A stretch of DNA of 55,440 nucleotides from a virus. Each line of letters opens with the position of its first letter. Within the stretch, counting starts at the first letter, position 1. A program made the translations under genes and the position numbers. The notes below the pieces were generated by a model. The model worked only from the letters and a program-made list of their open reading frames with translations. It was not told where the DNA came from and made no database searches. Location of the stretch: positions 1 to 55,440 of IMG/VR virus record IMGVR_UViG_3300021085_001393, one strand, 5' to 3'. Below, in pieces: positions 1 through 53,437 of this stretch.

Positions 1-1660
1 TGACGGAATAGTCAAATCTAAGTTCTGACCCCATGTTTCCAACGATGCACTCACCAGTGTTAATACCAATGCCAACATTGATAGGGGGAAGACCGAGTGG
101 TTTGAGTTCTTCATTGAGTTCCTTGGTTGCGATTAGTATTTCTTCTGCAGACTTGACTGCCATCTCGGCATGGTCGGGACAATCTAACGGTGCATTCCAA
201 AAACTCATAATACAATCACCCATATACTTGTCAATTGTTCCATTATTATTTAGGATTATCTTTGTCTGCATGTCAAGAAATTTATTGACAAGTTCTACTA
301 ATCCTTCGGGGTCATCTTGTTTCATGTAGTGTTCGCTTATGGGGGTGAATCCACATATGTCCATAAACATGAAGGTAAGTTCCTTTCTATCTCCACCAAG
401 TTTCAATAATTCGGGGTTCTCAGCGAGTTGGTCAACCATGTCAGGCGATAAATACTTTTGGAACTGCTTCTTAATTTCTTCTTTGAGTTGGTAGGTCGTA
501 TAGTATTTGTTGAAGGAAGCATGACCGAAAATCATCAAGGAGGCTATCGATGAGTAGAAAGTATCGAAAAGAACGAAAGACGAAGTCCACAAATAGAACC
601 CCCCACCCACCTGAAATCCAACAATACCTAGACTCACTAGACCCGCAAAAATTGTGGGAACATTGTAGACCACGAGTAGAATACTTAGAAGTGCTATCAC
701 CAAAAGAGCAATCTCAAGCAATTCGAGATAGTAAGATTGTTGTATTTGAACTTCTTGCGAAACGGTTTGGATTAGGTTCGCTTGCACTTCGTGGGGATAT
801 AATACACCCACTGGAGTTGACACTGGATTATTCAGACCTTCAGCAGTCAAACCCCATATTAGAATCTTATTCTCATAATCTGAATTAGAGAGTTCACTAG
901 CACTAACTCTTTTGAATTGGTTCCAATATGATATCATCACATCACCAGTTGGTGTGGTGGTTATTGGTTTAGCACGTCCCATCCTAATCCATTCTATCCC
1001 TGATTCAGTTACACGGGTCTGATACGAAGGTTGGTCTTGTATAGCACGTAGTGTTTCTAGTGCAACACTTGGATAGATTTGATTATTTGCAAGAACTAAT
1101 AGGGGTGCAGAGCGAGTTGTACCATCAAAATTTGGTGTTCCCGATACACTAGGTGTGGTTACACTTACTCCAACACCGTAAGTATTGTCCTGAAGTATCC
1201 TGATTGGAGATGCAATTCCTGAAAACTGCCAGATGTTATCTTCTATAACACCCCCACCAAACACTGAAGTATTGACGAAAGGTGCAGTTCCTGTATCTTT
1301 TTGTATTGTTGGAGCTGAAGATAGGATAGAAAGTCTATTTACTAGACCTTCAGCAAATATCTCGTCACCACCGAATCTATCGACTTCTTTAAACAGTTGG
1401 GTGAACACATGAGTGTTACTCCAATGTGTTTCCAACATAATTTCAGCATAGATGTTTCTTGGTAATGGATACTGTCCATATGTTTCTAATGTCTTCTCAT
1501 CAATATCAACAAGTATGATATCGTCAACTTGAAGTACAGGTTGTTGTTGATGTAGAAAATCAAACCATGACCATTGTATATTTTCTACAATGTATGGTGA
1601 CCAAATTTTAAGTCCTACTAGTAACCCGATAGTCACTAAGACTGTCTTCCAATTATACAT
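1..1660 (-). CDS. CHASE2-domain class III adenylate cyclase (partial, C-terminus beyond window)
   Basis: My translation from the ATG at 1660 stays open to the left edge (553 codons). An N-terminal hydrophobic segment (about residues 6-14) precedes a CHASE2-like sensor domain (about 25-300) with the typical DDIILVDIDEKTLE and LPRNIY motifs and an RSAPLL motif. Three hydrophobic segments follow at about 314-373, then a class III cyclase domain. Metal-binding aspartates are D434 (DICGFT) and D482 (KYMGD). K478 and D550 (RFDYSV) are at the purine-selecting positions, and a Lys/Asp pair predicts ATP over GTP. The catalytic Asn and Arg expected after IGD would lie outside the window. The start overlaps the preceding stop (TAATG), so translation is probably coupled. 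The expected role is cAMP synthesis at the inner membrane in response to a periplasmic cue. Family assignment is strong; activity and role in infection are inferred. Confidence 0.88.
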   Translation of the reverse strand, partial: MYNWKTVLVTIGLLVGLKIWSPYIVENIQWSWFDFLHQQQPVLQVDDIILVDIDEKTLETYGQYPLPRNIYAEIMLETHWSNTHVFTQLFKEVDRFGGDEIFAEGLVNRLSILSSAPTIQKDTGTAPFVNTSVFGGGVIEDNIWQFSGIASPIRILQDNTYGVGVSVTTPSVSGTPNFDGTTRSAPLLVLANNQIYPSVALETLRAIQDQPSYQTRVTESGIEWIRMGRAKPITTTPTGDVMISYWNQFKRVSASELSNSDYENKILIWGLTAEGLNNPVSTPVGVLYPHEVQANLIQTVSQEVQIQQSYYLELLEIALLVIALLSILLVVYNVPTIFAGLVSLGIVGFQVGGGFYLWTSSFVLFDTFYSSIASLMIFGHASFNKYYTTYQLKEEIKKQFQKYLSPDMVDQLAENPELLKLGGDRKELTFMFMDICGFTPISEHYMKQDDPEGLVELVNKFLDMQTKIILNNNGTIDKYMGDCIMSFWNAPLDCPDHAEMAVKSAEEILIATKELNEELKPLGLPPINVGIGINTGECIVGNMGSELRFDYSV

Positions 1661-1917
1661 TAACTAAATTTCTTTTGTATCCACTTAAACATATAGTAAA
1701 TGCTTAATCCATAAGTTGCCAGAACTGACATTGATATACCTATGTAAATTAACTCTATTGGTGATAGGAAGAGAACCTGCCATACGAAATCAGATGCAGC
1801 TTCTACATCACCCAAAGATTCTGGCATGACCATATCATTCTCTTCGAACAGGTCTAATATGTCGTCATACTCTTCTTCAGTTAGACACTCGTAAAACTCG
1901 GGTGGACATTCACTCAT
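1660..1917 (-). CDS. Small acidic protein with one transmembrane helix, between iscU and cyclase
   Basis: 85 aa. The N-terminal half is strongly acidic (SECPPEFYECLTEEEYDD) and is followed by a hydrophobic segment at about residues 50-76 and a basic tail (KWIQKKFS), suggesting a single-pass membrane protein with a cytoplasmic C-terminus. The start codon overlaps the iscU stop (ATGA) and its stop overlaps the cyclase start (TAATG), so the three genes form one translationally coupled unit. I do not recognise a family. A membrane partner or anchor for one of its neighbours is possible but unproven. Confidence 0.7.
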   Translation of the reverse strand: MSECPPEFYECLTEEEYDDILDLFEENDMVMPESLGDVEAASDFVWQVLFLSPIELIYIGISMSVLATYGLSIYYMFKWIQKKFS

Positions 1918-2366
1918 TCTATAAAGTCCTCTCTCGAAAGTGGTGGTGGATTGTTGTGTCCTATTTTAGAATTTTTCTTACTTTCGTAATTAATCATTGC
2001 CTTTCTGATTGCATCTTCAGCTAAGACACTACAGTGTAGTTTGATTGGTGGTAAGTCTAATGCATCTGCGATATCTTTATCTTTGATGAGTTTTGCTTCT
2101 TCAACGGTTTTGCCCATCATCATATCTACGAACATAGATGAACTTGCGATTGCACTTCCGCAACCATATGTTTTAAATTTTACATCGATGATTCTTTCAT
2201 CATCATCTAGTAATAGTTGAAGTTGCATGACATCTCCACAAGCAGGGGCGCCTGCAAGTCCAGTTGCAACTTTGGGGTCGTCTTGGTCTAATCTACCAAC
2301 TGAATGTTTCTTGGGATTTGCAAGAACTGCTTCGAATCTTTTTACTACTTCTTCTGAATATGCCAT
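1914..2366 (-). CDS. iscU: IscU-type Fe-S cluster assembly scaffold
   Basis: 150 aa, close in pattern to bacterial IscU (about 128 aa) with a C-terminal extension of roughly 20 residues ending PPPLSREDFIE. All three cluster-ligand cysteines are present: C43 in GAPACGD, C69 in KTYGCGSAIASSS and C112 in LHCSVLAEDAI. The cluster-release aspartate D45 is also present. The LPPIK motif at 105-109 corresponds to the LPPVK motif bound by the HscA chaperone, so the protein probably works with the host IscS/HscAB machinery, none of which is encoded here. A late-promoter-like TCTAAATA lies exactly 5 nt before the ATG and there is no Shine-Dalgarno. It leads the unit that continues into the membrane protein and cyclase. 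It may supply clusters to the radical SAM enzyme nearby (inference). Confidence 0.93.
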   Translation of the reverse strand: MAYSEEVVKRFEAVLANPKKHSVGRLDQDDPKVATGLAGAPACGDVMQLQLLLDDDERIIDVKFKTYGCGSAIASSSMFVDMMMGKTVEEAKLIKDKDIADALDLPPIKLHCSVLAEDAIRKAMINYESKKNSKIGHNNPPPLSREDFIE

Positions 2367-2450: not shown

Positions 2451-3170
2451 CTACTCCTGTGTAACCGATACACTACAACCACCTATTGTTAAGCAGTTTA
2501 CGGATACATTATACAATTGGTTTGTTGCACTCATCTGCTTTAAAATTAAATCAGTTCCATATAGTCCGTCAAGAGTAATATTGGCATTGTGTGTAGCACC
2601 ATTCCCTTTCTGTCTAACAAATACATCGTTATAGTCGTTGTAAATTGTAAGGTCTACATTCTTTGCACCGTTACTTTGTTGTTTTATTTGCACTTCATTA
2701 TGGTCACCTGCTAAGTGTAAATCGAAGTCATGACCATCAAGTGCGCCTGTTTGATTTGTTTGTTGAACTGCTAATTGATTATAGTCGCCATACAAGGTGA
2801 TATCTATTTCATGACCACCACTCTCATAGTTATCCACCCACCAAGTTAAATCAGTATCAGAATCAAGTGTAGTCCATGCAGCTCCCTGAGCAAGTTTCAT
2901 TTGATTACCTGTACCACTAATCTCATCAAATGTGATTGAGTTGGGAAGTGTGGAAGAGTTTGTATTGACTTGAACCAAATACATATCTAAACTTGTTGCT
3001 GTAATATATGAATTACTATCTAACATTTGGATTTCGTTACTGTGTCCAATTTGCTCTACACCTAATTGAAAAGTATCACCACTCTGTTCTATGGTCAATT
3101 CGTTGTCTGCTAAGACTAAGGGTGCTAGTCCTAAGACTAGCACTATGAATGTTTGCTTTATATAATCCAT
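2451..3170 (-). CDS. Curlin-like (CsgA/CsgB-type) secreted repeat protein 1
   Basis: 239 aa from the ATG at 3170 (MDYIKQTFIVLVLGLAPLVLA), which gives a clean Sec signal peptide; an upstream in-frame start at 3215 would bury it. The mature part has curlin-style repeats with Gln/Gly/Asn at fixed spacing: IEQSGDTFQLGVEQIGHSNEIQ, then GDYNQLAVQQTNQ, GDHNEVQIKQQSN and NDYNDVFVRQKGN. These match the strand-turn-strand repeat that stacks into the amyloid beta-solenoid in CsgA and CsgB. The C-terminus carries a Cys pair (NCLTIGGC). Together with CsgG, CsgF and a second curlin-like gene upstream it suggests an extracellular or outer-membrane fibre system. Whether it polymerises is inference. Confidence 0.75.
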   Translation of the reverse strand: MDYIKQTFIVLVLGLAPLVLADNELTIEQSGDTFQLGVEQIGHSNEIQMLDSNSYITATSLDMYLVQVNTNSSTLPNSITFDEISGTGNQMKLAQGAAWTTLDSDTDLTWWVDNYESGGHEIDITLYGDYNQLAVQQTNQTGALDGHDFDLHLAGDHNEVQIKQQSNGAKNVDLTIYNDYNDVFVRQKGNGATHNANITLDGLYGTDLILKQMSATNQLYNVSVNCLTIGGCSVSVTQE

Positions 3171-3304
3171 TGTAAAATAATTACCGTAGCAACTCCTTGA
3201 AAATAATAAAACCATATTAGGTCATAATCATCGATATCGAATTCGTCTTGTATGCGATACGTCCATGTCTTATGCCATTTTACAACTTTTTTAAATACGT
3301 TCAT
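3158..3304 (-). CDS. Small hydrophobic-tailed protein, 48 aa
   Basis: Begins MNVFKKVVKWHKTW, has an acidic middle (QDEFDIDDYD) and ends with a hydrophobic stretch of about 20 residues (LIWFYYFQGVATVIILQWII), consistent with a tail-anchored inner-membrane protein. AGGAAAC sits 5 nt before the ATG. The 3' end overlaps the start of curlin-like protein 1 by 13 nt in another frame, suggesting coupling. No family recognised. Confidence 0.6.
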   Translation of the reverse strand: MNVFKKVVKWHKTWTYRIQDEFDIDDYDLIWFYYFQGVATVIILQWII

Positions 3305-3318
3305 ATGTTTCCTCTTAC

Positions 3319-3326
3319 TATTTAGT
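3319..3326 (-). promoter_or_regulatory. Late-type promoter ACTAAATA before the 48-aa gene and curlin 1
   Basis: ACTAAATA on the minus strand, 14 nt before the ATG at 3304. With T4 late geometry the transcript would start at about 3313 and its 9-nt leader would begin with the Shine-Dalgarno AGGAAA. It overlaps the 3' end of the FecR-domain gene. Confidence 0.45.
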
Positions 3327-4476
3327 TCGTTTGTTTAATAACAACTACACTATCGCTACCACCATTGGTGGTAATGATTCCTTCATAACCGTCTACGAAG
3401 GTTTCTAATGTCACAGAAGAGCCACCAGCGAACCGTAAACTGATAACTCCATCAACATCTCTATAGAAAACAATTCCACCGTCTTCTAGAAAGATATTGT
3501 ATTGACTGTCGGGGTTCTTACCAAAGATTCCACCATCAAGTGTGAACTCACCCTTTGCTACACCTGTAGGTTTTTGTGCATCAGCAAGTTTCGCTGTTGT
3601 CCTAACAAGTTCTTCAACAACATCTAGTAAATCCACCAAGAAATCAACATCTAGAAAATCTATGTCTAATGCATTGTAATCTAAATCTGCAAGAGTGTTC
3701 TCTAGTGCATCTTGTTCCAATTCATCGAATGCTAAGAAATCTTGGTCAAGAGCCCCTTTGTCTTTATCTAGGTCGTCTTCAACTTGTTGATTAATTTGGT
3801 CTTGTACTTCTCTTGGCGGACTAACAATAAACATATTGTCAATAATTGCTGGAGTGATGTTTTGTATTATGATTGATGGTGATGGTGCAGTCGATATACT
3901 ACTAACCATTGTCGCTTCATATGCTTGGTTAATTGTAACAGAACCGCCTTGATTTGTAACTATAATCTCACCTGAAGAAATGCCATCGTCATCAGGCAAA
4001 AGTACTATGAGACTCCTTCCGAGCTCATCCACGGTTGTCGTGAAATCTGTACCATTGATTGAAATTTGTGCAGTAGGTGTTTGTACCGAGATATTTCTTT
4101 TCTTTATCTTAGTACCAGCACCCGAAGCGAATCTTGCTGTACCCTGTGCCATACGTAATGACATCTTAGACAGCGATGGGTTTGGGTCATAGTAAACTTC
4201 ATCTATGTACACTTTAGAATTTTCAGTTAATGATAATTCCTCATTATCCAAAAACTCAATTAACATTCTACCTTTAGCAGTCACCGCTTCATCGTACAGG
4301 ACTATATCTGTCCCAACACTATGACCCAATGGTTGATTGTTTCTCAGTATAGACCCTACACCCAATGACTCAACAATACCACCAATGGGGTCTGCAGATG
4401 CGACCCCACTAATGAGCATCAGATTAAGAATCAGTAGTTGTGTCTTTCTGATTAATCTGTATGGTTGAGTTGTCAC
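3322..4476 (-). CDS. Secreted FecR-domain protein
   Basis: 384 aa. The N-terminus has a signal peptide (basic RLIRKTQ, then hydrophobic LLILNLMLISGVASA). A FecR-like domain follows at about residues 30-165: VGSILRNNQPLGHSVGTDIVL, then GRMLIEFLDNEELSLTENSKV, ARFASGAG, and VQTPTAQISINGTDF. The region 200-300 is Asp/Glu/Leu-rich and may be helical, and a beta-rich C-terminal domain follows. FecR domains of this kind occur in secreted or periplasmic proteins near fibre or adhesin systems. The start overlaps the end of curlin-like protein 2 by 53 nt, tying it to the curli-type operon. It could be a periplasmic chaperone, a nucleator or a structural partner of the fibre; nothing here decides which. 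Confidence 0.78.
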   Translation of the reverse strand: MTTQPYRLIRKTQLLILNLMLISGVASADPIGGIVESLGVGSILRNNQPLGHSVGTDIVLYDEAVTAKGRMLIEFLDNEELSLTENSKVYIDEVYYDPNPSLSKMSLRMAQGTARFASGAGTKIKKRNISVQTPTAQISINGTDFTTTVDELGRSLIVLLPDDDGISSGEIIVTNQGGSVTINQAYEATMVSSISTAPSPSIIIQNITPAIIDNMFIVSPPREVQDQINQQVEDDLDKDKGALDQDFLAFDELEQDALENTLADLDYNALDIDFLDVDFLVDLLDVVEELVRTTAKLADAQKPTGVAKGEFTLDGGIFGKNPDSQYNIFLEDGGIVFYRDVDGVISLRFAGGSSVTLETFVDGYEGIITTNGGSDSVVVIKQTN

Positions 4477-5161
4477 TAGTAATATCTAATGTGATTATAC
4501 CCTTACAAGTGTTAATACCTGTAGGACATGTACCACTTAGTTGGTTTATGTCAACATCTGCGCCGTCACCATCTAACTCCATGGTGAGAGAATGATAGTT
4601 AGCATCCTTTTGCAATGTATTAATATTATTAGAAGCACCTGTAATATCCATATTCCATGTGACATCATTTGTTTCTATATCCACATCAAATACGTTTGAA
4701 CTACCCAAAACTGTTAAATCAAAATCTAACCTGTCCGCACTAACCAATGAACCTTGGTCTAAATCCATAGTGTTTGAATCTCCAGTGATATCAACTAGAT
4801 AGTTAGAACTATCAGATGAACCTGTTTCTCCAATCATCCAATCCCAAACATTAGAGCTACCATTCCACTCTAAAACATATGTTGAACTGTCAGCTGTCAC
4901 CTTACCAAAAAGAAGGTTACTATTACCTATTTGGTCTATATTGAACGATAATGATACACCAGTAATTGGCATAGCACTTGAACTACTGTCAAAGTTATCA
5001 AGTCCTATTTTGTTACCATAACCTATTTGGTCGATGTACAACGTCAAAGTGTCACCAGTTTGATTTATGTTGATTTCGTTATCGTCAGAGGCTGCTGCTG
5101 AGAGCATGTTTGTGAATCCACACAAAATACATAATATACTTAAACTTCTTAGTTTATTCAT
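4424..5161 (-). CDS. Curlin-like (CsgA/CsgB-type) secreted repeat protein 2
   Basis: 245 aa with a signal peptide (MNKLRSLSILCILCGFTNMLSAAA). Curlin-type repeats are visible: ININQTGDTLTLYIDQIGYGNKI, FNIDQIGNSNLLFG, VDITGDSNTMDLDQGS, VLGSSNVFDVDI, DITGASNNINTLQ and DITSDNSTIQINQK. As in curlin-like 1 there is a Cys pair near the C-terminus (CPTGINTC), which I do not associate with canonical CsgA. The start overlaps the csgG stop (ATGAATAA), so CsgG and this substrate are co-translated. Major subunit versus nucleator cannot be assigned from sequence. Confidence 0.75.
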   Translation of the reverse strand: MNKLRSLSILCILCGFTNMLSAAASDDNEININQTGDTLTLYIDQIGYGNKIGLDNFDSSSSAMPITGVSLSFNIDQIGNSNLLFGKVTADSSTYVLEWNGSSNVWDWMIGETGSSDSSNYLVDITGDSNTMDLDQGSLVSADRLDFDLTVLGSSNVFDVDIETNDVTWNMDITGASNNINTLQKDANYHSLTMELDGDGADVDINQLSGTCPTGINTCKGIITLDITSDNSTIQINQKDTTTDS

Positions 5162-6038
5162 ATTTTTCTCTTCCTTCTATACTCCAAAAACCCCTATCGT
5201 GTCCTTGGATAATTAACTCATACACGGCTGCTTCAACAGCAGTACGTGTAGCGTATGTCACCGACTCATTATTACCCACACCGTCCTCGTACTCTACTAG
5301 TTGAGTTCCTTGTTCATAAAACCTAAACAAGTCTCCGCCAGAACCATAAGAAAGGATAGTCTTTCTTGTTTGGACGTTTAACAAAACCTCACCAGTAAGA
5401 ACTGATACTGCACGTAATGAAACTGTGATTGCATCCTTTCTATACTGCTTACTAAAACCTATGCCAAGTGTACGTGCGCCTCGTCCACCTGATTCTAAAT
5501 TTGTATCATAACCAATTACACCACCTTCGAGAAGCATTCCAGCAAATAGAAGTGGTGCAACACCTTCTTTACCAATCTCTTCTCTAGCAGACCTAATAAT
5601 TTGACGCTCTCTTACTAGGTTATCTAATCCTTGTCTCTCGACTACACGGAACCATGTTCCACCACCAGCAGTCTTAAGTGCATCAATTAGCATTTCAGTT
5701 CCACCTTGTGTAACTGCAGTAGAGAAGTCTGCTATTCCTTCTCTTGCTTTTCTTTGTCCTGTCTTGTCTATAAATCCGTATACTGCAACTACTGGTCGAC
5801 TTTCAGCAGCAGGTAATTCCAACAACTGAATGTAAGATGGTAGTCTTACATTTTCGGGTTCATCAACACAAATATATTTTCGTGCTAATTGTTTTTTGAT
5901 TCCCATAGTCAAGTGTCTATCTAGACCCTCAACATATTTTCCTGCTTTATCATTACAATCTTGTGGTACATCTGACCATTGTGGTATGGATGCACAACCT
6001 GTAAGTATTAGTAAAAAACTAACCGCCAGAATTCGCAT
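5154..6038 (-). CDS. csgG: CsgG-like curli secretion pore, outer-membrane lipoprotein
   Basis: 294 aa from the ATG at 6038 (MRILAVSFLLILTGCASIP), chosen because GGGAG lies 8 nt upstream and it gives a compact lipoprotein signal with lipobox LTGC. Family patterns include VVAVYGFIDKTGQRK, the TAVTQGGTEMLIDAL and WFRVVERQGLDNLVRERQIIRS segments, LLFAGMLLEGGVIGYDTN, GGRGARTLGIG, and DAITVSLRAVSVLTGEVLLNV. CsgG forms a nonameric outer-membrane channel that exports curlins. Its start overlaps the csgF stop region by 20 nt. No CsgE or CsgC is visible nearby. The phage may use it to export its own curlin-like proteins, or as an envelope pore; both are inference. Confidence 0.88.
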   Translation of the reverse strand: MRILAVSFLLILTGCASIPQWSDVPQDCNDKAGKYVEGLDRHLTMGIKKQLARKYICVDEPENVRLPSYIQLLELPAAESRPVVAVYGFIDKTGQRKAREGIADFSTAVTQGGTEMLIDALKTAGGGTWFRVVERQGLDNLVRERQIIRSAREEIGKEGVAPLLFAGMLLEGGVIGYDTNLESGGRGARTLGIGFSKQYRKDAITVSLRAVSVLTGEVLLNVQTRKTILSYGSGGDLFRFYEQGTQLVEYEDGVGNNESVTYATRTAVEAAVYELIIQGHDRGFWSIEGREKYE

Positions 6039-6507
6039 CGCCATCACTCCCGAAATTACCACTACCAATTGGTATTTCGATAACTGTTGTTGTTCCATTC
6101 GAATCTATGATGGTCATTTTAATAAACTCTGTACCATCTCCATTCGTTATAACTTCATACGTTACAGTTGACCCTTCTAATACAAAGGAACCGTATCTTA
6201 CTGGATTGTCATTGTTGAACATATTTTCAACTAACTGTTTTGACATCTCAGCATAAATTCTGCTTTCTAAATTTCTTATAAATTTAGCTAGCGTAGTATT
6301 CTCTTCCGCCCTTTGTGCCGCTTTAGCAGCAGCCTCAAGAGAGTCCTTTATCGCTTTTTTACGACTTGACTCTTGGTTTTCAATTGTCAAATAGTGTGAA
6401 CCAGTTCCCTGCCCACTAAATGACGGATTTTTAAACTTATGTACTATCTCCGTACCGTATGCGCTTACCGTGAAGCACAATATCATTACCGCTAATATCT
6501 TTCTCAT
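6019..6507 (-). CDS. csgF: CsgF-like curli assembly protein
   Basis: 162 aa from the ATG at 6507, preceded by GAGG. The signal peptide is MRKILAVMILCFTVSAYG. The mature N-terminus TEIVHKFKNPSFSGQGTGSHYL matches the CsgF N-terminal pattern (F-x-F-R-N-P-x-F-G-G) that inserts into the CsgG barrel and forms its second constriction. The C-terminal part (VTYEVITNGDGTEFIKMTIID, TTTVIEIPIGSGNF) resembles the CsgF beta domain. The middle (about 45-85) is a Lys/Ala/Glu-rich helix. The first 70 nt overlap the 3' end of the radical SAM gene in another frame. Pairing with csgG next door supports the call. Confidence 0.85.
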   Translation of the reverse strand: MRKILAVMILCFTVSAYGTEIVHKFKNPSFSGQGTGSHYLTIENQESSRKKAIKDSLEAAAKAAQRAEENTTLAKFIRNLESRIYAEMSKQLVENMFNNDNPVRYGSFVLEGSTVTYEVITNGDGTEFIKMTIIDSNGTTTVIEIPIGSGNFGSDGDANSGG

Positions 6508-7327
6508 TGTCCACCTCAATTGCGTGTATCAGTTCCACGCCTTTAATATAATTCTTAGAGTCTATTTCAGGTTTTAACGAAGACCATTTTCCCATCTTCG
6601 GTGGCCATGGACACTTCGAACACATATCCAAAGGTTTCCCACGTTCCACAAACTCTACTAACTCTTTTGCCGTACTATACTCTTGCATATCTGAGTCTTC
6701 ATTCATTGATATTGTACAATGATATAGACCCTTGGTAGTCAATGTCAAACAGTTATCTTTTTGCCAACAGTTATTCCAGTTCTCCTCTGCAGTAGTTCCC
6801 GAGAGTGCCAACCCACTTCTAGTTTCTGCCACACCGTATTGTTCAAACAAACTTTGTGGCCAAAACTCTAAGAGTGTCTCTTCGGAAATTTCATTTGCAA
6901 TTCCCGATTTCATCATCTCTTGGTCTACTGGCATGTTCGGATACACCGAAACGATAACATGGTCTACTAACTTAAGTGTCTCTACCACTTTAGGTTTTAA
7001 CAGTAATCCATTTGTTACCACCGTCAACTTTTTGAACACCATACCTTTATATGCAAGTAACATACCAATTATGCTACTGAACTCTTTATGAAGTGTAGGT
7101 TCTCCACCTAAAATCTTGAGTTCTTCAAGTATAATACCCAAACTGTCCAACTTGGTTATCAATTGACTTATGTCCTCAGTGGTCATATGCCCTATTGTAA
7201 CCCTACCTTTATAATCTAATACACTACATCCTTTGCAGTGTAAATTACAAGCGTTAATAATGTATAAGTCGTAACTACCCTTTAGTAGTTTTCTTTTGTT
7301 TTTCAAAGGCCTTCTCTTTTTCTGCAT
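6437..7327 (-). CDS. Radical SAM protein with C-terminal cysteine clusters
   Basis: 296 aa from the ATG at 7327 (MQKKRRPLKNKRK), preceded by AGAGG; a GTG at 7351 is an alternative. The radical SAM signature is CNLHCKGC (CX3CX2C) in NACNLHCKGCSVLDY, followed by the GGEPTLH motif that contacts SAM. Further cysteines (NNCWQKDNC, YHC, CSKCPWPP) could bind an auxiliary cluster as in SPASM or twitch enzymes. It lies upstream of csgF and overlaps it, and also overlaps the preceding membrane-protein gene by 53 nt. Enzymes of this type often modify peptides or small molecules; modification of a curlin-like substrate is a tempting but untested idea. Confidence 0.82.
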   Translation of the reverse strand: MQKKRRPLKNKRKLLKGSYDLYIINACNLHCKGCSVLDYKGRVTIGHMTTEDISQLITKLDSLGIILEELKILGGEPTLHKEFSSIIGMLLAYKGMVFKKLTVVTNGLLLKPKVVETLKLVDHVIVSVYPNMPVDQEMMKSGIANEISEETLLEFWPQSLFEQYGVAETRSGLALSGTTAEENWNNCWQKDNCLTLTTKGLYHCTISMNEDSDMQEYSTAKELVEFVERGKPLDMCSKCPWPPKMGKWSSLKPEIDSKNYIKGVELIHAIEVDNEKDISGNDIVLHGKRIRYGDST

Positions 7328-7571
7328 CTTCAAGTACCTCTTGTCTAGCACGATACTCTAACACTACATCAACTTTCTGCTGTAACCTAATCATATCTTG
7401 GTCAAGCATTCTAGTTTGGTCTATGACTCTAATGAGTGCCATATGCATTTCTTCAATTTGTGGGTCAATCTTTTCACCGATGAACCACCACACATAATAT
7501 ATGAAGTAACCTAGTCCTACTGCCATGACAACGGGAAACCCGAAATCATTAATCAGTTGTGCTACATCCAT
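7275..7571 (-). CDS. Single-pass membrane protein with coiled-coil tail
   Basis: 98 aa from ATG 7571 (MDVAQLINDFGFPVVMAVG), which immediately follows the upstream stop (TAATATG) with AGAGA ahead of it; an ATG at 7589 is possible. One transmembrane helix (VVMAVGLGYFIYYVWWFIG) precedes a charged heptad-like helix (about 35-95) ending in Lys-rich sequence. Shape and start motif (D-x-G-x-P) resemble the upstream neighbour, so the two may be paralogues. Holin-like and envelope-associated roles have been suggested for proteins of this build; I cannot assign one. Confidence 0.65.
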   Translation of the reverse strand: MDVAQLINDFGFPVVMAVGLGYFIYYVWWFIGEKIDPQIEEMHMALIRVIDQTRMLDQDMIRLQQKVDVVLEYRARQEVLEDAEKEKAFEKQKKTTKG

Positions 7572-7572
7572 A

Positions 7573-7869
7573 TTAATCTCTTCGGACATCTAACTTTCCG
7601 TCCTCTATAAAGTTCTCTGCACGTGCAACTCTGTCTATGTCGGGTCTTAAATCTAAAGCTGCCGACACTAACAAATCTATTTTAACCATCTCATTTGACA
7701 TGGTTCTAGCACGATTTTCTAAACTCTTACAGAAGATTGTTAACGTCTTTATGTTTTCCACGATACCTTCAAGTATCTGTTTGATAACTATAAAGATGAA
7801 GAACCCCATAACAATTGAACCTGCTATAGGCGCTCCCACGTCCGCAATAAGATTAAATATCTCTTCCAT
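7573..7869 (-). CDS. Single-pass membrane protein, leaderless late gene
   Basis: 98 aa, MEEIFNLIADVGAPIAGSIVMG then a transmembrane helix (about 13-35) and an amphipathic, coiled-coil-like C-terminal half (LENRARTMSNEMVKIDLL). TATAAATA lies 5 nt before the ATG and there is no usable Shine-Dalgarno, so the mRNA is predicted to be leaderless. A terminator directly upstream isolates this gene and its followers from the 8-kb genes. Function unknown. Confidence 0.68.
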   Translation of the reverse strand: MEEIFNLIADVGAPIAGSIVMGFFIFIVIKQILEGIVENIKTLTIFCKSLENRARTMSNEMVKIDLLVSAALDLRPDIDRVARAENFIEDGKLDVRRD

Positions 7870-7874
7870 GCCTT

Positions 7875-7882
7875 TATTTATA
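7875..7882 (-). promoter_or_regulatory. T4-type late promoter TATAAATA, 5 nt before ATG 7869
   Basis: Perfect match to the T4 late consensus on the minus strand: TATAAATA-AAGGC-ATGG. It starts the transcript for the membrane-protein pair and probably the radical SAM/csgF/csgG operon beyond. Confidence 0.7.
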
Positions 7883-17273: not shown

Positions 17274-17303
17274 ATAGTATCAAAAAGTTACTGGCTTTGT
17301 CTA
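17274..17303 (-). promoter_or_regulatory. Promoter P4 upstream of tRNA-Arg
   Basis: Minus strand TAGACA (17298-17303), 18 nt, TACTAT (17274-17279). The segment ACAAAGCC and the T-run match P1, so it belongs to the same family although both hexamers are weaker. It overlaps the 3' end of the 2OG oxygenase gene. Confidence 0.6.
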
Positions 17304-17893
17304 GTGGGTAATTGCATTCCTAGTAAAGAAAATTGGTCTTCTCTAAGGTCATCTGTGACCATGTCGGTCATCATGTTGTTTGTGTCGCCTGAGAACCACA
17401 TGGCGATAGTGTAACGAGGACATCTTCGAACCTTCTGTACACCATGTTCGTGATAAAGTCCTTGGAACAGAACTCCTTGTCCCGATACAGGGTCGTGTGT
17501 ATAGTCATCATCGGGGAAGTATGTCTTACCATCACCAAAGTTGCTATTGAGATTTAGTATAAGAGTCCACTCTCTTCTAGGTGGTGCATTAGCGTCATCT
17601 AAACCATATTGAAGTTGTGCTGAAGAGTAGGTATCTTTATGTGGGTCTTGAAAACCACCGATTGGCCACTCTGTCATAATACACATTTCGGGATACATTC
17701 TCTGACCAGTATCTTTGTAGATGGTAGAGATTGAATCAAATTGAATTCGTCTAAGGAGTGTCCTTATATAATGGTCGTGTATGTGTATGATATTGATTCC
17801 AAAGTAATCAGAACCGTCACCAACACTTTGAAGGTTTTTGAAGTTTTCTCTAAACCACTGAATTAGATGCTGGTTCTCTTGCGGAGATGTCAT
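17288..17893 (-). CDS. 2OG-Fe(II) oxygenase (first of four)
   Basis: 201 aa from ATG 17893 (MTSPQENQHLIQWF); a start at 17965 would overlap the deformylase gene by 116 nt. The double-stranded beta-helix ligands are visible: HxD as DPHKDTY, the distal His in LYHEHGVQ and the 2-oxoglutarate-binding Arg in CPRYTIAMWFSG. Such enzymes hydroxylate proteins, nucleic acids or small molecules; the substrate is unknown. It is the last gene of the deformylase operon before the tRNA. Confidence 0.8.
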   Translation of the reverse strand: MTSPQENQHLIQWFRENFKNLQSVGDGSDYFGINIIHIHDHYIRTLLRRIQFDSISTIYKDTGQRMYPEMCIMTEWPIGGFQDPHKDTYSSAQLQYGLDDANAPPRREWTLILNLNSNFGDGKTYFPDDDYTHDPVSGQGVLFQGLYHEHGVQKVRRCPRYTIAMWFSGDTNNMMTDMVTDDLREDQFSLLGMQLPTRQSQ

Positions 17894-18461
17894 CTCGTTC
17901 TGAGTTATTAGATTGAGCTTCCTGTTGTTCTTGGATGAATCTTGCATATGCTTGTCGTTTTTCATAATCTAGTCTTTTTCGTTTTTCTTTAGGACGTGAT
18001 TTTAAAGCACGTTCTAATTTCAATTTACTTGCTCTTTGTAGGAACAAGATACCGTTGAGATGGTCTAGTTCATGTTGAATACATCTTGCACCGATACCAT
18101 CAAATAGTTGTGTGTGTTCTTCTCCCTTAGCGTTATTCCATCTGAGTTCACACACTTTGGGTCTCTTAATCATAAGGTATATATCGGGGAACGATAAACA
18201 CCCTTCTTTCATTAAGTCTGTTTCTTGAGACACTTTAGTTAACTCGGGGTTAAAGAATGCTTGAATACCGTCCTGTGTTCTCATGACAAAAACTCTAGCA
18301 TCTAGTCCCACTTGATTTGCACTCAGACCAAGACCACCATATTGTTCCATGGTCTCCGACAATTTGCTCTCTATCTCTTCAGCGTCTTCCCTTGTCTCAA
18401 AATCAAAATCACTTGGACGTGTCCTTAATACTTTACTCGCTTCTTCTACTAATTGATACAT
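17850..18461 (-). CDS. def: Peptide deformylase
   Basis: 203 aa. Motif I GLGLSANQVG, motif II EGCLSFP and motif III QHELDHLNG supply the Gln, the Cys ligand and the HEXXH zinc ligands. A basic, Gln-rich C-terminal extension (about 150-203) is longer than in typical phage deformylases. The enzyme removes the formyl group from new proteins; marine phages carry it often. Overlaps the previous stop (TAATG) and the next gene's 5' end. Confidence 0.93.
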   Translation of the reverse strand: MYQLVEEASKVLRTRPSDFDFETREDAEEIESKLSETMEQYGGLGLSANQVGLDARVFVMRTQDGIQAFFNPELTKVSQETDLMKEGCLSFPDIYLMIKRPKVCELRWNNAKGEEHTQLFDGIGARCIQHELDHLNGILFLQRASKLKLERALKSRPKEKRKRLDYEKRQAYARFIQEQQEAQSNNSERDDISAREPASNSVV

Positions 18462-21593: not shown

Positions 21594-22657
21594 AAATAAG
21601 AGTGTTCATCCAATGCTTCATTATACAACGTTGTCATCAATTCGTTAAGTGGCTTTTTCTTACCTTGGATTTCTAATCCATCGATGTAATTGGATAGGAT
21701 AGTTAGAGTGTCTTCTACATCTTCTATATCATCATCTCCATAAAAATCCATATGTTTATTATCGTCCACAACCGATACATGTAAAGGTGAAGCAGCATGT
21801 ACCTTGTCTAAGAATGTATCAAACCAATACGGATTGTCTTTATTGACGACAATAATTTTCACAAACTTACCAGTGTAATTTGAATAATCCTTTTCACTTA
21901 TAGTTTCAAAAGTTTCTTTAGCGTCATCATAGAAACCTTTTTCAAACATAGTAATAGGATTGTGTATTGGAGTTAAGGATTGGTCTTCAGTATCAAAAAT
22001 ATGGAAGTACTTCTTATCGTTATAATCTGACCAAGTAAATTCCATCTGTGAACCAACGTAATGAATGTTCTTAACTTCCGACTTTTGGTGGAAGTGTCCG
22101 CTATACACTTTATCAAAACGTTTTAAATATGAATGGTCTAGTCCATGTTGACATGTCATGCCTGGCATCATCAATGCACCTTCTATTTCAAAGTGACCCA
22201 TAGCAATAGATGCTGGTGCTGAACGTAAAAATTCTACTGAGTCAGCATAGTTATCATTATTAATCCATGGCACAAGTGCAATAGGAAATCCATCATACTC
22301 TCTAACTTCACACTCAGAATAAACAGATACGTTTGGTTGATTGTAAAGAAGTAATTCGGGAGCATTGACATCATTGGTGTTCTTATAATATGTGTCATGA
22401 TTACCAATTACTAAGTCCATGGTTATACCACGTTCAGTCATAGGTTCAATGAAGTGTTTGATATTTGCTTTCATGGAAGCGAAGTTGATATACTTCCTTC
22501 TATCGAAGTAGTCACCCATGTGAATGATGTGTTTGATATCATGTTCATCTAAGTATGGGAAGAACACTTCATTATAGAAACGTCCTTGATAATTAGACAT
22601 CTCAATCATATCACCTCTCACTCCACAGTGAGTGTCATTTAATATCGCTATCTTCAT
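21590..22657 (-). CDS. 47: Recombination endonuclease subunit gp47 (Mre11/SbcD-like)
   Basis: 355 aa (T4 gp47 is 339). Metallophosphoesterase motifs are in order: LNDTHCG, MGDYFDRRK, VIGNHD, MGHFEIEG and SGHFHQKS. The C-terminal domain differs from T4 and is acidic (YGDDDIEDVEDT). It is the nuclease partner of gp46. ATGA overlap with gene 55 couples the two. Confidence 0.95.
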   Translation of the reverse strand: MKIAILNDTHCGVRGDMIEMSNYQGRFYNEVFFPYLDEHDIKHIIHMGDYFDRRKYINFASMKANIKHFIEPMTERGITMDLVIGNHDTYYKNTNDVNAPELLLYNQPNVSVYSECEVREYDGFPIALVPWINNDNYADSVEFLRSAPASIAMGHFEIEGALMMPGMTCQHGLDHSYLKRFDKVYSGHFHQKSEVKNIHYVGSQMEFTWSDYNDKKYFHIFDTEDQSLTPIHNPITMFEKGFYDDAKETFETISEKDYSNYTGKFVKIIVVNKDNPYWFDTFLDKVHAASPLHVSVVDDNKHMDFYGDDDIEDVEDTLTILSNYIDGLEIQGKKKPLNELMTTLYNEALDEHSYL

Positions 22658-23217
22658 TTATCTTCGAATTTCTCTAGTGAGTTTTGTTTTGTAGATTTCC
22701 TTGTTCTTTTTGATTTCCTTGGTTCGTATGCAACCCTGTTCATATTCTCTTGCATCCATTCCACGTTAGTGTTGGTCAAGGTAGGGTCGTGTATTCCATC
22801 GATTGTATCAAATGCATCGAGTGTGAGTGAAGTAGCATCAATTGCTTGTTGTTTGATGTACACTTGTTTCTTTTCTTTCTGTATTCTTCTCAAGAAAGCA
22901 TAGTAACAAATCTGTGTAACATATGCAAATGCATTGTTTGATTTTTCTACATTGAAGTTGCCAAGATACTGAATACAATTCTCGATTGCATCACATATCA
23001 TTTCATCTCTATAAGTGTAGTTGATAAAGTTGGGTCTAGTAGATAGTCTTGTTGCAATCTTATAGATGCATTCTCCTATGTACTCTGACATTTGAGGTGG
23101 AGTTCCTTCCGACTCTTTCGCTTCTTTGATTGCAATTGCATACTCAGAAACTGCCGCTGTGAAGTCCTTGTTGTTGACGTAATGCGCCTGTGTTTTAGGG
23201 TCTTTTTTCTTAGTCAT
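22654..23217 (-). CDS. 55: Late sigma factor gp55
   Basis: 187 aa (T4 gp55 is 185). SEYIGECIYKIATRLSTRPNF, then YTYRDEMICDAIENCIQYLGNF and FAYVTQICYYAFLRRIQKEKKQ carry the sigma region 2-like helix that melts the TATAAATA late promoter. The C-terminal part is basic and ends in an acidic tail (LEKFEDK). This fits the late-type promoters seen across the window. GGAG lies 12 nt before the ATG, a rather long spacing. Confidence 0.92.
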   Translation of the reverse strand: MTKKKDPKTQAHYVNNKDFTAAVSEYAIAIKEAKESEGTPPQMSEYIGECIYKIATRLSTRPNFINYTYRDEMICDAIENCIQYLGNFNVEKSNNAFAYVTQICYYAFLRRIQKEKKQVYIKQQAIDATSLTLDAFDTIDGIHDPTLTNTNVEWMQENMNRVAYEPRKSKRTRKSTKQNSLEKFEDK

Positions 23218-33377: not shown

Positions 33378-33385
33378 TATTTATA
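33378..33385 (-). promoter_or_regulatory. T4-type late promoter TATAAATA, 5 nt before gene 20 ATG
   Basis: TATAAATA-TTAGT-ATGG on the minus strand. A 6-bp hairpin TACCAC/GTGGTA (33384-33401) partly overlaps it on the upstream side. Confidence 0.75.
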
Positions 33386-53429: not shown

Positions 53430-53437
53430 TATTTATA
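53430..53437 (-). promoter_or_regulatory. T4-type late promoter TATAAATA, 5 nt before ATG 53424
   Basis: TATAAATA-GTATC-ATGG on the minus strand, 11 bp after the end of the terminator T-run. Confidence 0.73.

Follow-up and report, generated by a model that had tools for sequence, protein, structure and literature searches.

A curli-type (type VIII) operon with a variable curlin-like protein in a T4-like marine phage

The DNA analysed here, called the window, is a stretch of 55,440 nucleotides from a viral genome, with portal, sheath, TerL and gp55 late sigma factor genes in the contig. Five genes lie on the minus strand from 2451 to 6507: those for CsgF and CsgG, for one curlin-like protein (c1), for an exported protein with a FecR domain and for another curlin-like protein (c2). 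All five curli-type genes that the initial annotation had described are present at the place given there, and its view that they make up an export set that looks complete, with two substrates of the curlin type, is supported. The module extends past this interval on both sides, with two small membrane proteins (TM1 and TM2) at its head and a CHASE2-cyclase at its end. The curli gene order is TM1-TM2-CsgF-CsgG-c1-FecR-c2-(NifU)-cyclase, and the features are as follows.

7875..7882, minus strand: T4-type late promoter element TATAAATA, 13 nt upstream of the module's first ATG
7573..7869, minus strand: TM1, 98 aa, with a single TM segment and a predicted coiled coil (phrog_18771)
7275..7589, minus strand: TM2, a TM1 paralogue of 104 aa
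6437..7351, minus strand: accessory radical SAM protein, SPASM/twitch-like (PF04055, 8.8e-13), inserted in a subset of modules (15 loci)
6019..6507, minus strand: CsgF (PF10614, E 1e-16, 61.8 bits against a cut-off of 25.8; phrog_35372)
5154..6098, minus strand: CsgG lipoprotein channel (PF03783, E 6.5e-53, 179.6 bits against a cut-off of 20.8)
4424..5161, minus strand: c1, the constant curlin-like protein
3322..4476, minus strand: exported FecR-domain protein (PF04773, E 8e-10, 39.5 against 24 bits; phrog_37870, 8.6e-66)
3158..3304, minus strand: membrane-protein-like ORF of 48 aa in the FecR-c2 interval, conserved in 34 loci
2451..3170, minus strand: c2, the variable curlin-like protein, a predicted beta-solenoid (AlphaFold pLDDT 77.9, pTM 0.80)
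1914..2366, minus strand: accessory NifU-like Fe-S scaffold (PF01592, 7e-39), present in a subset of modules (18 loci)
2..1660, minus strand: CHASE2-adenylate/guanylate cyclase, the module's last gene (family match of 552 aa), truncated by the window end
22654-23217, same contig: gp55-type late sigma factor gene

Neighbouring genes overlap, as had been noted earlier, or almost abut; the exception is a gap of ~100-150 nt ahead of c2, which holds the conserved 48-aa ORF. N-terminal export signals are found in 5/5 products (CsgF, CsgG, c1, FecR and c2), in line with the earlier reading, and CsgG has an LTGC lipobox. Chance or misread ORFs are rejected by the domain matches, the conserved gene order and purifying selection. 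No match to CsgE (PF10627) was found within the window, which is itself a genome fragment. Phage-like CsgG contigs also occur in MAGs labelled Rhodobacteraceae, Synechococcus, Flavobacteriales, Planctomycetaceae and others, and these look like phage contigs that were binned with unrelated hosts.

The CsgG of the window matches CsgG in the PDB (E 3.5e-47), and its real start probably lies further inside the ORF. At the constriction (mature numbering) Phe56 is kept, Tyr51 aligns to Arg and Asn55 to Asp. The protein is ~48% identical to CsgG of HTVC008M, and the CsgG tree places it in a separate IMG/VR lineage. In curli systems the CsgF N-terminus plugs the barrel of CsgG; alignment of CsgF revealed that the N-terminal FxNPSFSG motif is kept in phages and in Hyphomonas. 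PDB sequence searches with the CsgF, c1 and FecR profiles gave nothing useful.

Both curlin-like proteins are 239-245 aa long and have a conserved cysteine pair close to the C-terminus. The match of c1 to the curlin repeat (PF07012; E 0.0075, 16.6 bits) is below the Pfam cut-off of 20.7, and its match to NCBIfam CsgA (E 4e-6) is likewise under the cut-off of that model. c1 contains 8 strand-turn-strand motifs vs 0.3 in shuffles, a number that 0/5000 shuffles reach, and strict QxGxxN is also enriched (2 vs 0.07 in shuffles). A family search returned no match of c2's own; profile-profile comparison gives homology to c1 at 99.5% probability. c2 has 4 strand-turn-strand motifs vs 0.28 in shuffles (P 0.0014), and strict QxGxxN is not significantly enriched (1 vs 0.14 in shuffles). 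Neither protein has an evident Gly-rich secretion signal of the N22 type. The AlphaFold model of c2 is a beta-solenoid of seven to eight strand-turn-strand units, the fold that had been expected of it. The viral proteins that it matches best in fold are labelled 'Curlin associated' (E 1e-5 to 3e-3), and a PDB fold search gave weak beta-solenoid matches only, none under E 0.1.

The weak canonical repeat match in the window, together with the cysteine pair and the variable middle region of c2, would also suit non-amyloid export, in which CsgG/CsgF present c1 and c2 as adhesins or decoys that stay monomeric or form short polymers. Homology to CsgA and the conserved linkage to CsgF, the curli nucleation partner, speak against such a role, which we consider doubtful.

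At a distance of at most 60 nt from the module head, 52 of 79 loci have TATAAATA and 61 of 79 have NATAAATA, and only 0-1 of 73-83 loci have the motif before csgF, csgG, c1, FecR or TM2. A late promoter that heads the module in 61/79 loci is apparently new. It is compatible with coating of the cell or virion, aggregation of debris and lysis alike.

CsgF, CsgG, c1, FecR and c2 are present in 52/52 loci and the cyclase in 51/52, counted over loci with at least 3.5 kb beyond csgG on the downstream side; the curlin genes are neither absent nor degraded in relatives, the outcome that had been proposed as a refutation. Purifying selection was observed for TM1 (omega.165), TM2 (.179), CsgF (.162), CsgG (.182), c1 (.18), FecR (.23), the cyclase (.18) and c2 (.43). 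These data bear on the function proposed for the Methylophilales phage Melnitz, for which csgA/B were stated to be absent and a pinholin-type role was suggested (Buchholz et al. 2022, PMC9004378). According to this proposal the pore is repurposed for lysis timing in a pinholin/secretin-like manner: the envelope is depolarised or opened by CsgGF and TM1/TM2, with the curlins as passengers. The late promoter at the module head would fit, as would the weak similarity of TM2 to a holin PHROG (E 0.003) and the occurrence of TM1/TM2 in phages only alongside curli genes. However, the presence of both curlin genes in every one of the 52 loci and the purifying selection on them argue against an orphan pore or pinholin. 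The premise that csgA/B are absent from Melnitz also fails: its GenBank records and Pfam show curlin-repeat genes, contrary to PMC9004378, and the Melnitz orthologues of c1 and c2 score 26.0 and 21.8 bits, above the Pfam curlin cut-off of 20.7. In addition, depolarisation of the inner membrane does not follow from a pore in the outer membrane alone. An orphan pore without substrates is thus unsupported, and a role in lysis timing is quite unlikely.

TM1 and TM2 of the window lack a HisKA/HATPase kinase domain in Pfam and NCBIfam, and no Pfam kinase match was found in the corresponding copies of HTVC008M, Melnitz and locus L076. The 'histidine kinase' of Wittmers et al. 2022 (PMC9599517) apparently corresponds to TM1 and TM2, which are small membrane proteins and have no kinase domain; that they are the genes meant is judged from position.

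The FecR protein matches the PupR signalling domain in fold (6ovk, E 6.5e-4), and its C-terminus is I-x-Q-x-N. Pfam gave no anti-sigma domain match and there is no hydrophobic stretch after the N-terminal signal segment. Since the cytoplasmic anti-sigma part and the internal TM helix are missing, the protein is not classed as a FecR regulator, and a role as iron regulator is not supported. The full-length copy of the cyclase (CHASE2 4e-26, cyclase 1e-15) comes from a contig whose remaining module proteins equal those of the window. The presence of a FecR domain is in keeping with a pore through which nutrients or iron are taken up during infection, as proposed in PMC7029224 and PMC9599517. A late promoter heading the module, the conservation of dedicated export substrates and a FecR protein without the anti-sigma and membrane parts of the iron regulator make this very improbable.

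c2 is hypervariable and behaves as a cassette that phages swap with one another, while the flanking genes are constant. This exchange is apparently new, and exchange against a constant background is the pattern of a protein that is exposed or partner-specific. Both the diversity of c2 cassettes and the exported solenoid proteins (the c2 solenoid is predicted) could also point to superinfection exclusion, with a fibre coat that masks receptors and a c2 that varies with competitors or their adsorption proteins. Exclusion is usually an early function, yet the module promoter is late, and we regard it as unlikely.

Because the curlins are always kept, the promoter is late and c2 is exchanged, the weight shifts from an orphan pore to a fibre secreted to the cell surface, one subunit of which varies. 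The reading that we favour, with a probability of about 0.55, is that an alphaproteobacterial-type curli (type VIII) operon was taken up by a T4-like marine phage, is run late in infection and yields an exported curli-like coat that serves adhesion. It draws its support from the genes, their order and conservation, the promoter motif, the signals, the exchange of c2 and the predicted c2 solenoid; from these we infer export, fibre assembly, the roles of FecR, the cyclase and TM1/TM2, and the benefit to the phage. The late sigma factor gene in the contig and the five-gene operon of Hyphomonas sp. TMED17 also speak for it. Points against it are the missing CsgE match in the window, the lack of an evident N22-like signal in c1 and c2, the two changed CsgG constriction residues, the weak PDB fold matches of c2 and the Melnitz-infected cultures that did not clump. 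The gp55-type sigma factor would transcribe the module late in infection from the promoter at 7875-7882, Sec would carry the products into the periplasm, and CsgG and CsgF would form an outer-membrane channel. The main subunit is probably c1; for c2 the role of a minor, tip or adhesive subunit is probable. Both may leave the cell unfolded and become beta-solenoids outside, where they would stack and so cover the dying cell with a curli-like coat. Sensing in the periplasm is probably the task of the exported FecR-domain protein paired with the CHASE2-cyclase, and TM1/TM2 are probably an inner-membrane accessory. The likeliest benefit would be adhesion, by which siblings, debris or progeny are held near susceptible hosts or the cell surface is occupied.

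A more specific form of this reading is put forward tentatively. In a late-expressed, self-secreted amyloid surface system the constant c1 may carry a swappable c2 that sets the target cells, siblings or competing phages, comparable to tail-fibre adhesins. The swapping of c2 cassettes hints at the purpose of the system. For the widespread phage curli operons the options are narrowed and the genes to test are named.

Like the E. coli csgBAC/csgDEFG system, the window has the CsgG and CsgF families and strand-turn-strand curlin repeats. Unlike E. coli curli, it has no CsgE match, no evident N22 signal, altered CsgG constriction residues and a module under a phage late promoter. The cysteine pair of its 239-245 aa curlins is a further difference; E. 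coli CsgA is not known to have such a conserved pair near its C-terminus.

The gene set is already known from marine phages and is not new. An identical gene set and gene order has been published for SAR11 podo- and myophages, CsgA/B-type genes and FecR have already been named in these operons, and phage curli operons were found at all 65 GOV2.0 stations (Wittmers et al. 2022, PMC9599517). HTVC008M (KC465899) and Melnitz carry the set, and a HTVC008M gene is labelled 'curlin minor subunit CsgB' in GenBank. The earlier view that CsgG and CsgF of pelagimyophages are known only without substrates is out of date in view of PMC9599517 and this label. The window resembles the SAR11-phage T8SS operons in its two small proteins, CsgF, CsgG, CsgA/B-like protein, FecR, second CsgA/B-like protein and cyclase, but differs from them in the added radical SAM and NifU genes and the separate CsgG lineage. 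Melnitz has the same gene order as the window, both curlin-repeat genes included; no clumping was seen in Melnitz-infected cultures (PMC9004378).

Alphaproteobacteria all lack CsgE (Dueholm 2012, PMC3521004), and CsgE is therefore not defining for alphaproteobacterial systems. A csgF-csgG-curlin-FecR-CHASE2 cyclase operon is found on a bacterial 705-kb contig of Hyphomonas sp. TMED17 (L092), and no CsgE was seen beside it. When the phage-like FecR was searched in 200 Hyphomonas-order genomes, only Hyphomonas TMED17 scored near the phages. Other Hyphomonas-order genomes have FecR-cyclase neighbours, with no csg match within the short loci examined. In most other alphaproteobacterial csg loci examined neither FecR nor a cyclase adjoins csgG. 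The TMED17 operon lacks TM1/TM2 and its single curlin is long (504 aa), whereas the window has two curlins and TM1/TM2. Since the Hyphomonas operon includes FecR and a cyclase, these genes are not phage inventions, and a bacterial curli operon with both is apparently new. Two corrections to the literature are suggested by these comparisons: the proteins labelled 'histidine kinase' lack a kinase domain, and FecR and a cyclase can be members of bacterial curli operons.

The curli module occupies the minus strand and has the following genes, listed from its head.

From 7869, minus: TM1 and TM2, two related membrane proteins of about 100 aa, the first genes of the module
6437-7351, minus: radical SAM protein with SPASM-like cysteines, between TM2 and CsgF
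Downstream of the radical SAM gene, minus: CsgF, then CsgG, then the curlin-like protein c1, then a FecR-domain protein
3158-3304, minus: 48-aa ORF whose C-terminal half is hydrophobic, after FecR and before c2
2451-3170, minus: c2, a second curlin-like protein, after the 48-aa ORF
1914-2366, minus: NifU-like protein, after c2
Reaching position 1, minus: CHASE2-cyclase, the last gene, cut by the window end

In a Pfam profile search CsgG and CsgF scored far above the curated cut-offs, and the FecR-domain protein was also above its cut-off. c1 falls below the Pfam curlin cut-off, and its match to the NCBIfam CsgA family (E 4e-6) is likewise below that family's cut-off. Family searches gave c2 no match of its own; its profile matches that of c1 at 99.5% probability in a profile-profile comparison. 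All five proteins that the initial annotation had placed together in a phage are present, and the export signals it assigned to them are predicted at each N-terminus (CsgG with a lipobox). Its expectation of a solenoid fold is borne out for c2 at the level of models: AlphaFold predicts strand-turn-strand units (mean pLDDT 77.9, pTM 0.80), and five of its six top matches among viral models go under the name 'Curlin associated' (E down to 1.3e-5). Matches in the PDB are weak (E >0.1) and mostly beta-solenoids of other kinds. Both curlin-like proteins carry two conserved cysteines close to the C-terminus (c1 residues 212/219 and c2 226/232 in the window), which possibly form a disulfide loop; E. 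coli CsgA is not known to have such a pair.

CsgG relatives are encoded in 255 viral stretches, the best 80 of which were kept for comparison. CsgF, CsgG, c1, FecR and c2 are all present in 52/52 loci in which the sequence continues for more than 3.5 kb beyond csgG, among them the window, the SAR11 phage HTVC008M and the Methylophilales phage Melnitz, so that both curlin-like genes, whose retention in relatives had been proposed as a check, are kept throughout; the sample was chosen by CsgG similarity and is uninformative on phages that lost csgG. The cyclase is found in 51 and TM1/TM2 in 50 of these loci. The 48-aa ORF occurs in 34 loci and is missing where FecR directly precedes c2. Radical SAM and NifU genes are inserted in a subset of modules, often both; the radical SAM enzyme might mature one of the module proteins, with NifU as its Fe-S supply. 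Median pairwise dN/dS (simple Nei-Gojobori counts) is 0.16-0.23 for seven module genes and 0.43 for c2, the latter value being rough because c2 is harder to align and the counts are simple.

c2 is a cassette. Some phage pairs have near-identical modules with very different c2 proteins: L045 and L051 share 99% identity in CsgG, 94% in c1, 86% in FecR and 96% in the cyclase but 45% in c2, and for L067 and L070 the values are 98% (CsgG), 98% (c1), 88% (FecR) and 39% (c2). DNA identity in such pairs starts at roughly 90% or higher, drops to 30-60% within c2 and rises again towards the cyclase, the signal-peptide end of c2 still being conserved at the DNA level in several pairs. Conversely, the window c2 shares 74% identity with its L049 counterpart, though L049 is distant in CsgG (62%) and FecR (53%), yet only 44% with that of L010, whose CsgG is much closer (89%). 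Across pairs of loci, the identities of CsgG, c1 and FecR track one another (correlations of 0.83-0.85) but follow those of c2 less closely (only 0.43-0.49), and 58 loci divide into 16 c2 types when the threshold is set at 58%. No mention of this exchange was found in the published work consulted.

The motif TATAAATA, that of T4-type late promoters, lies at 7875-7882 (minus), 13 nt upstream of the TM1 ATG. In 52 of 79 loci it lies no more than 60 nt from the module head, as does NATAAATA in 61 of 79 (38 of 54 distinct upstream sequences). The same scan before csgF, csgG, c1, FecR or TM2 gave 0 or 1 of 73-83 loci, and before c2 5 of 61. The motif also precedes the portal and other structural genes in the window; its total there (8) is not above chance by itself, so the evidence for a late promoter is the conserved position. 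The spacing from TATAAATA to ATG is exactly 13 nt at three window genes (7875-7882, 33378-33385 and 53430-53437, minus), and many relatives share it at TM1. Should this motif work as it does in T4, transcripts would begin at or beside the start codon, making these late mRNAs leaderless, unless translation really starts further in.

The record, from IMG/VR, is of a T4-like myovirus, with genes for portal, sheath and terminase, and also encodes a gp55 late sigma factor, regA and a clamp loader. The nearest named relative of its terminase is Phage C48C1 (54%), followed by cyanophages. A 2OG-Fe(II) oxygenase/endonuclease-like protein (17288-18461) adjoins a peptide deformylase gene; such oxygenase-like and deformylase genes are typical cargo of marine T4-like phages. 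In the CsgG tree the window clusters with many environmental phages and apart from HTVC008M and Melnitz, which group together. The protein of the marine Hyphomonas sp. TMED17 sits on a long branch between these two clusters, which makes its exact place unsure. Phage-like contigs with curli modules (L085-L091) were assigned to MAGs under the labels Rhodobacteraceae, Sphingobacteriales, Synechococcus, Flavobacteriales, Planctomycetaceae and Saprospirales, which are unlikely to be the true hosts. An unannotated 1.5-kb 'Salmonella phage' record (GenBank OR851715.1), possibly a bacterial fragment, encodes a CsgG 44% identical to that of the window.

CsgG and CsgF probably make the channel, the structure of which is known for E. 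coli (PMC7304575). Aligned with E. coli CsgG, the constriction keeps Phe56 and has Arg for Tyr51 and Asp for Asn55. No CsgE match turned up in the window, which is a genome fragment; in Alphaproteobacteria its absence is normal (PMC3521004). The bacterial layout closest to the phage module among those found is that of TMED17 (L092:7474-13497), where csgF, csgG, a 504-aa curlin, FecR and a CHASE2 cyclase follow in that order, flanked by ordinary bacterial genes on a chromosome-size contig; FecR followed by the cyclase is therefore not a phage invention. In other genomes of the Hyphomonas order a related FecR-domain gene adjoins a cyclase gene, with no csg matches beside these pairs within the short loci examined. 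The FecR protein has a confidently predicted N-terminal beta domain resembling the PupR cell-surface signalling domain (6ovk, E 6.5e-4) and is poorly predicted outside it. The pairing of the FecR and cyclase genes suggests that their products are a periplasmic sensing pair. The FecR protein ends in a conserved I-x-Q-x-N, similar to a strand of a curlin. No kinase domain was found in TM1 or TM2. Within the phage collection both are confined to the curli-bearing HTVC008M and Melnitz phages, and from this distribution they are probably part of the system.

The most likely mechanism is that a phage-driven curli secretion system would work late in infection and that constant (c1) and variable (c2) solenoid proteins would be displayed on the infected cell. 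Secretion and display as curli-like material is given a probability of about 0.55, and any single ecological role is held with clearly less confidence; we infer an adhesive benefit of the displayed proteins. Zaragoza-Solas et al. (2020; PMC7029224) described csgF and csgG beside hypothetical genes and proposed sibling capture. Buchholz et al. (2022; PMC9004378) stated that csgA/B are missing, observed no clumping and suggested a pore that times lysis. Wittmers et al. (2022; PMC9599517) recognised CsgA/B, FecR, the cyclase and an 'HK', apparently TM1/TM2, in phage curli operons. The initial claim of novelty, that only CsgG and CsgF without substrates were known, fails because this kind of operon had already been published; what it observed in the sequence holds. 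The operon in the window is of the same known kind as those of Wittmers et al., but belongs to a different phage lineage.
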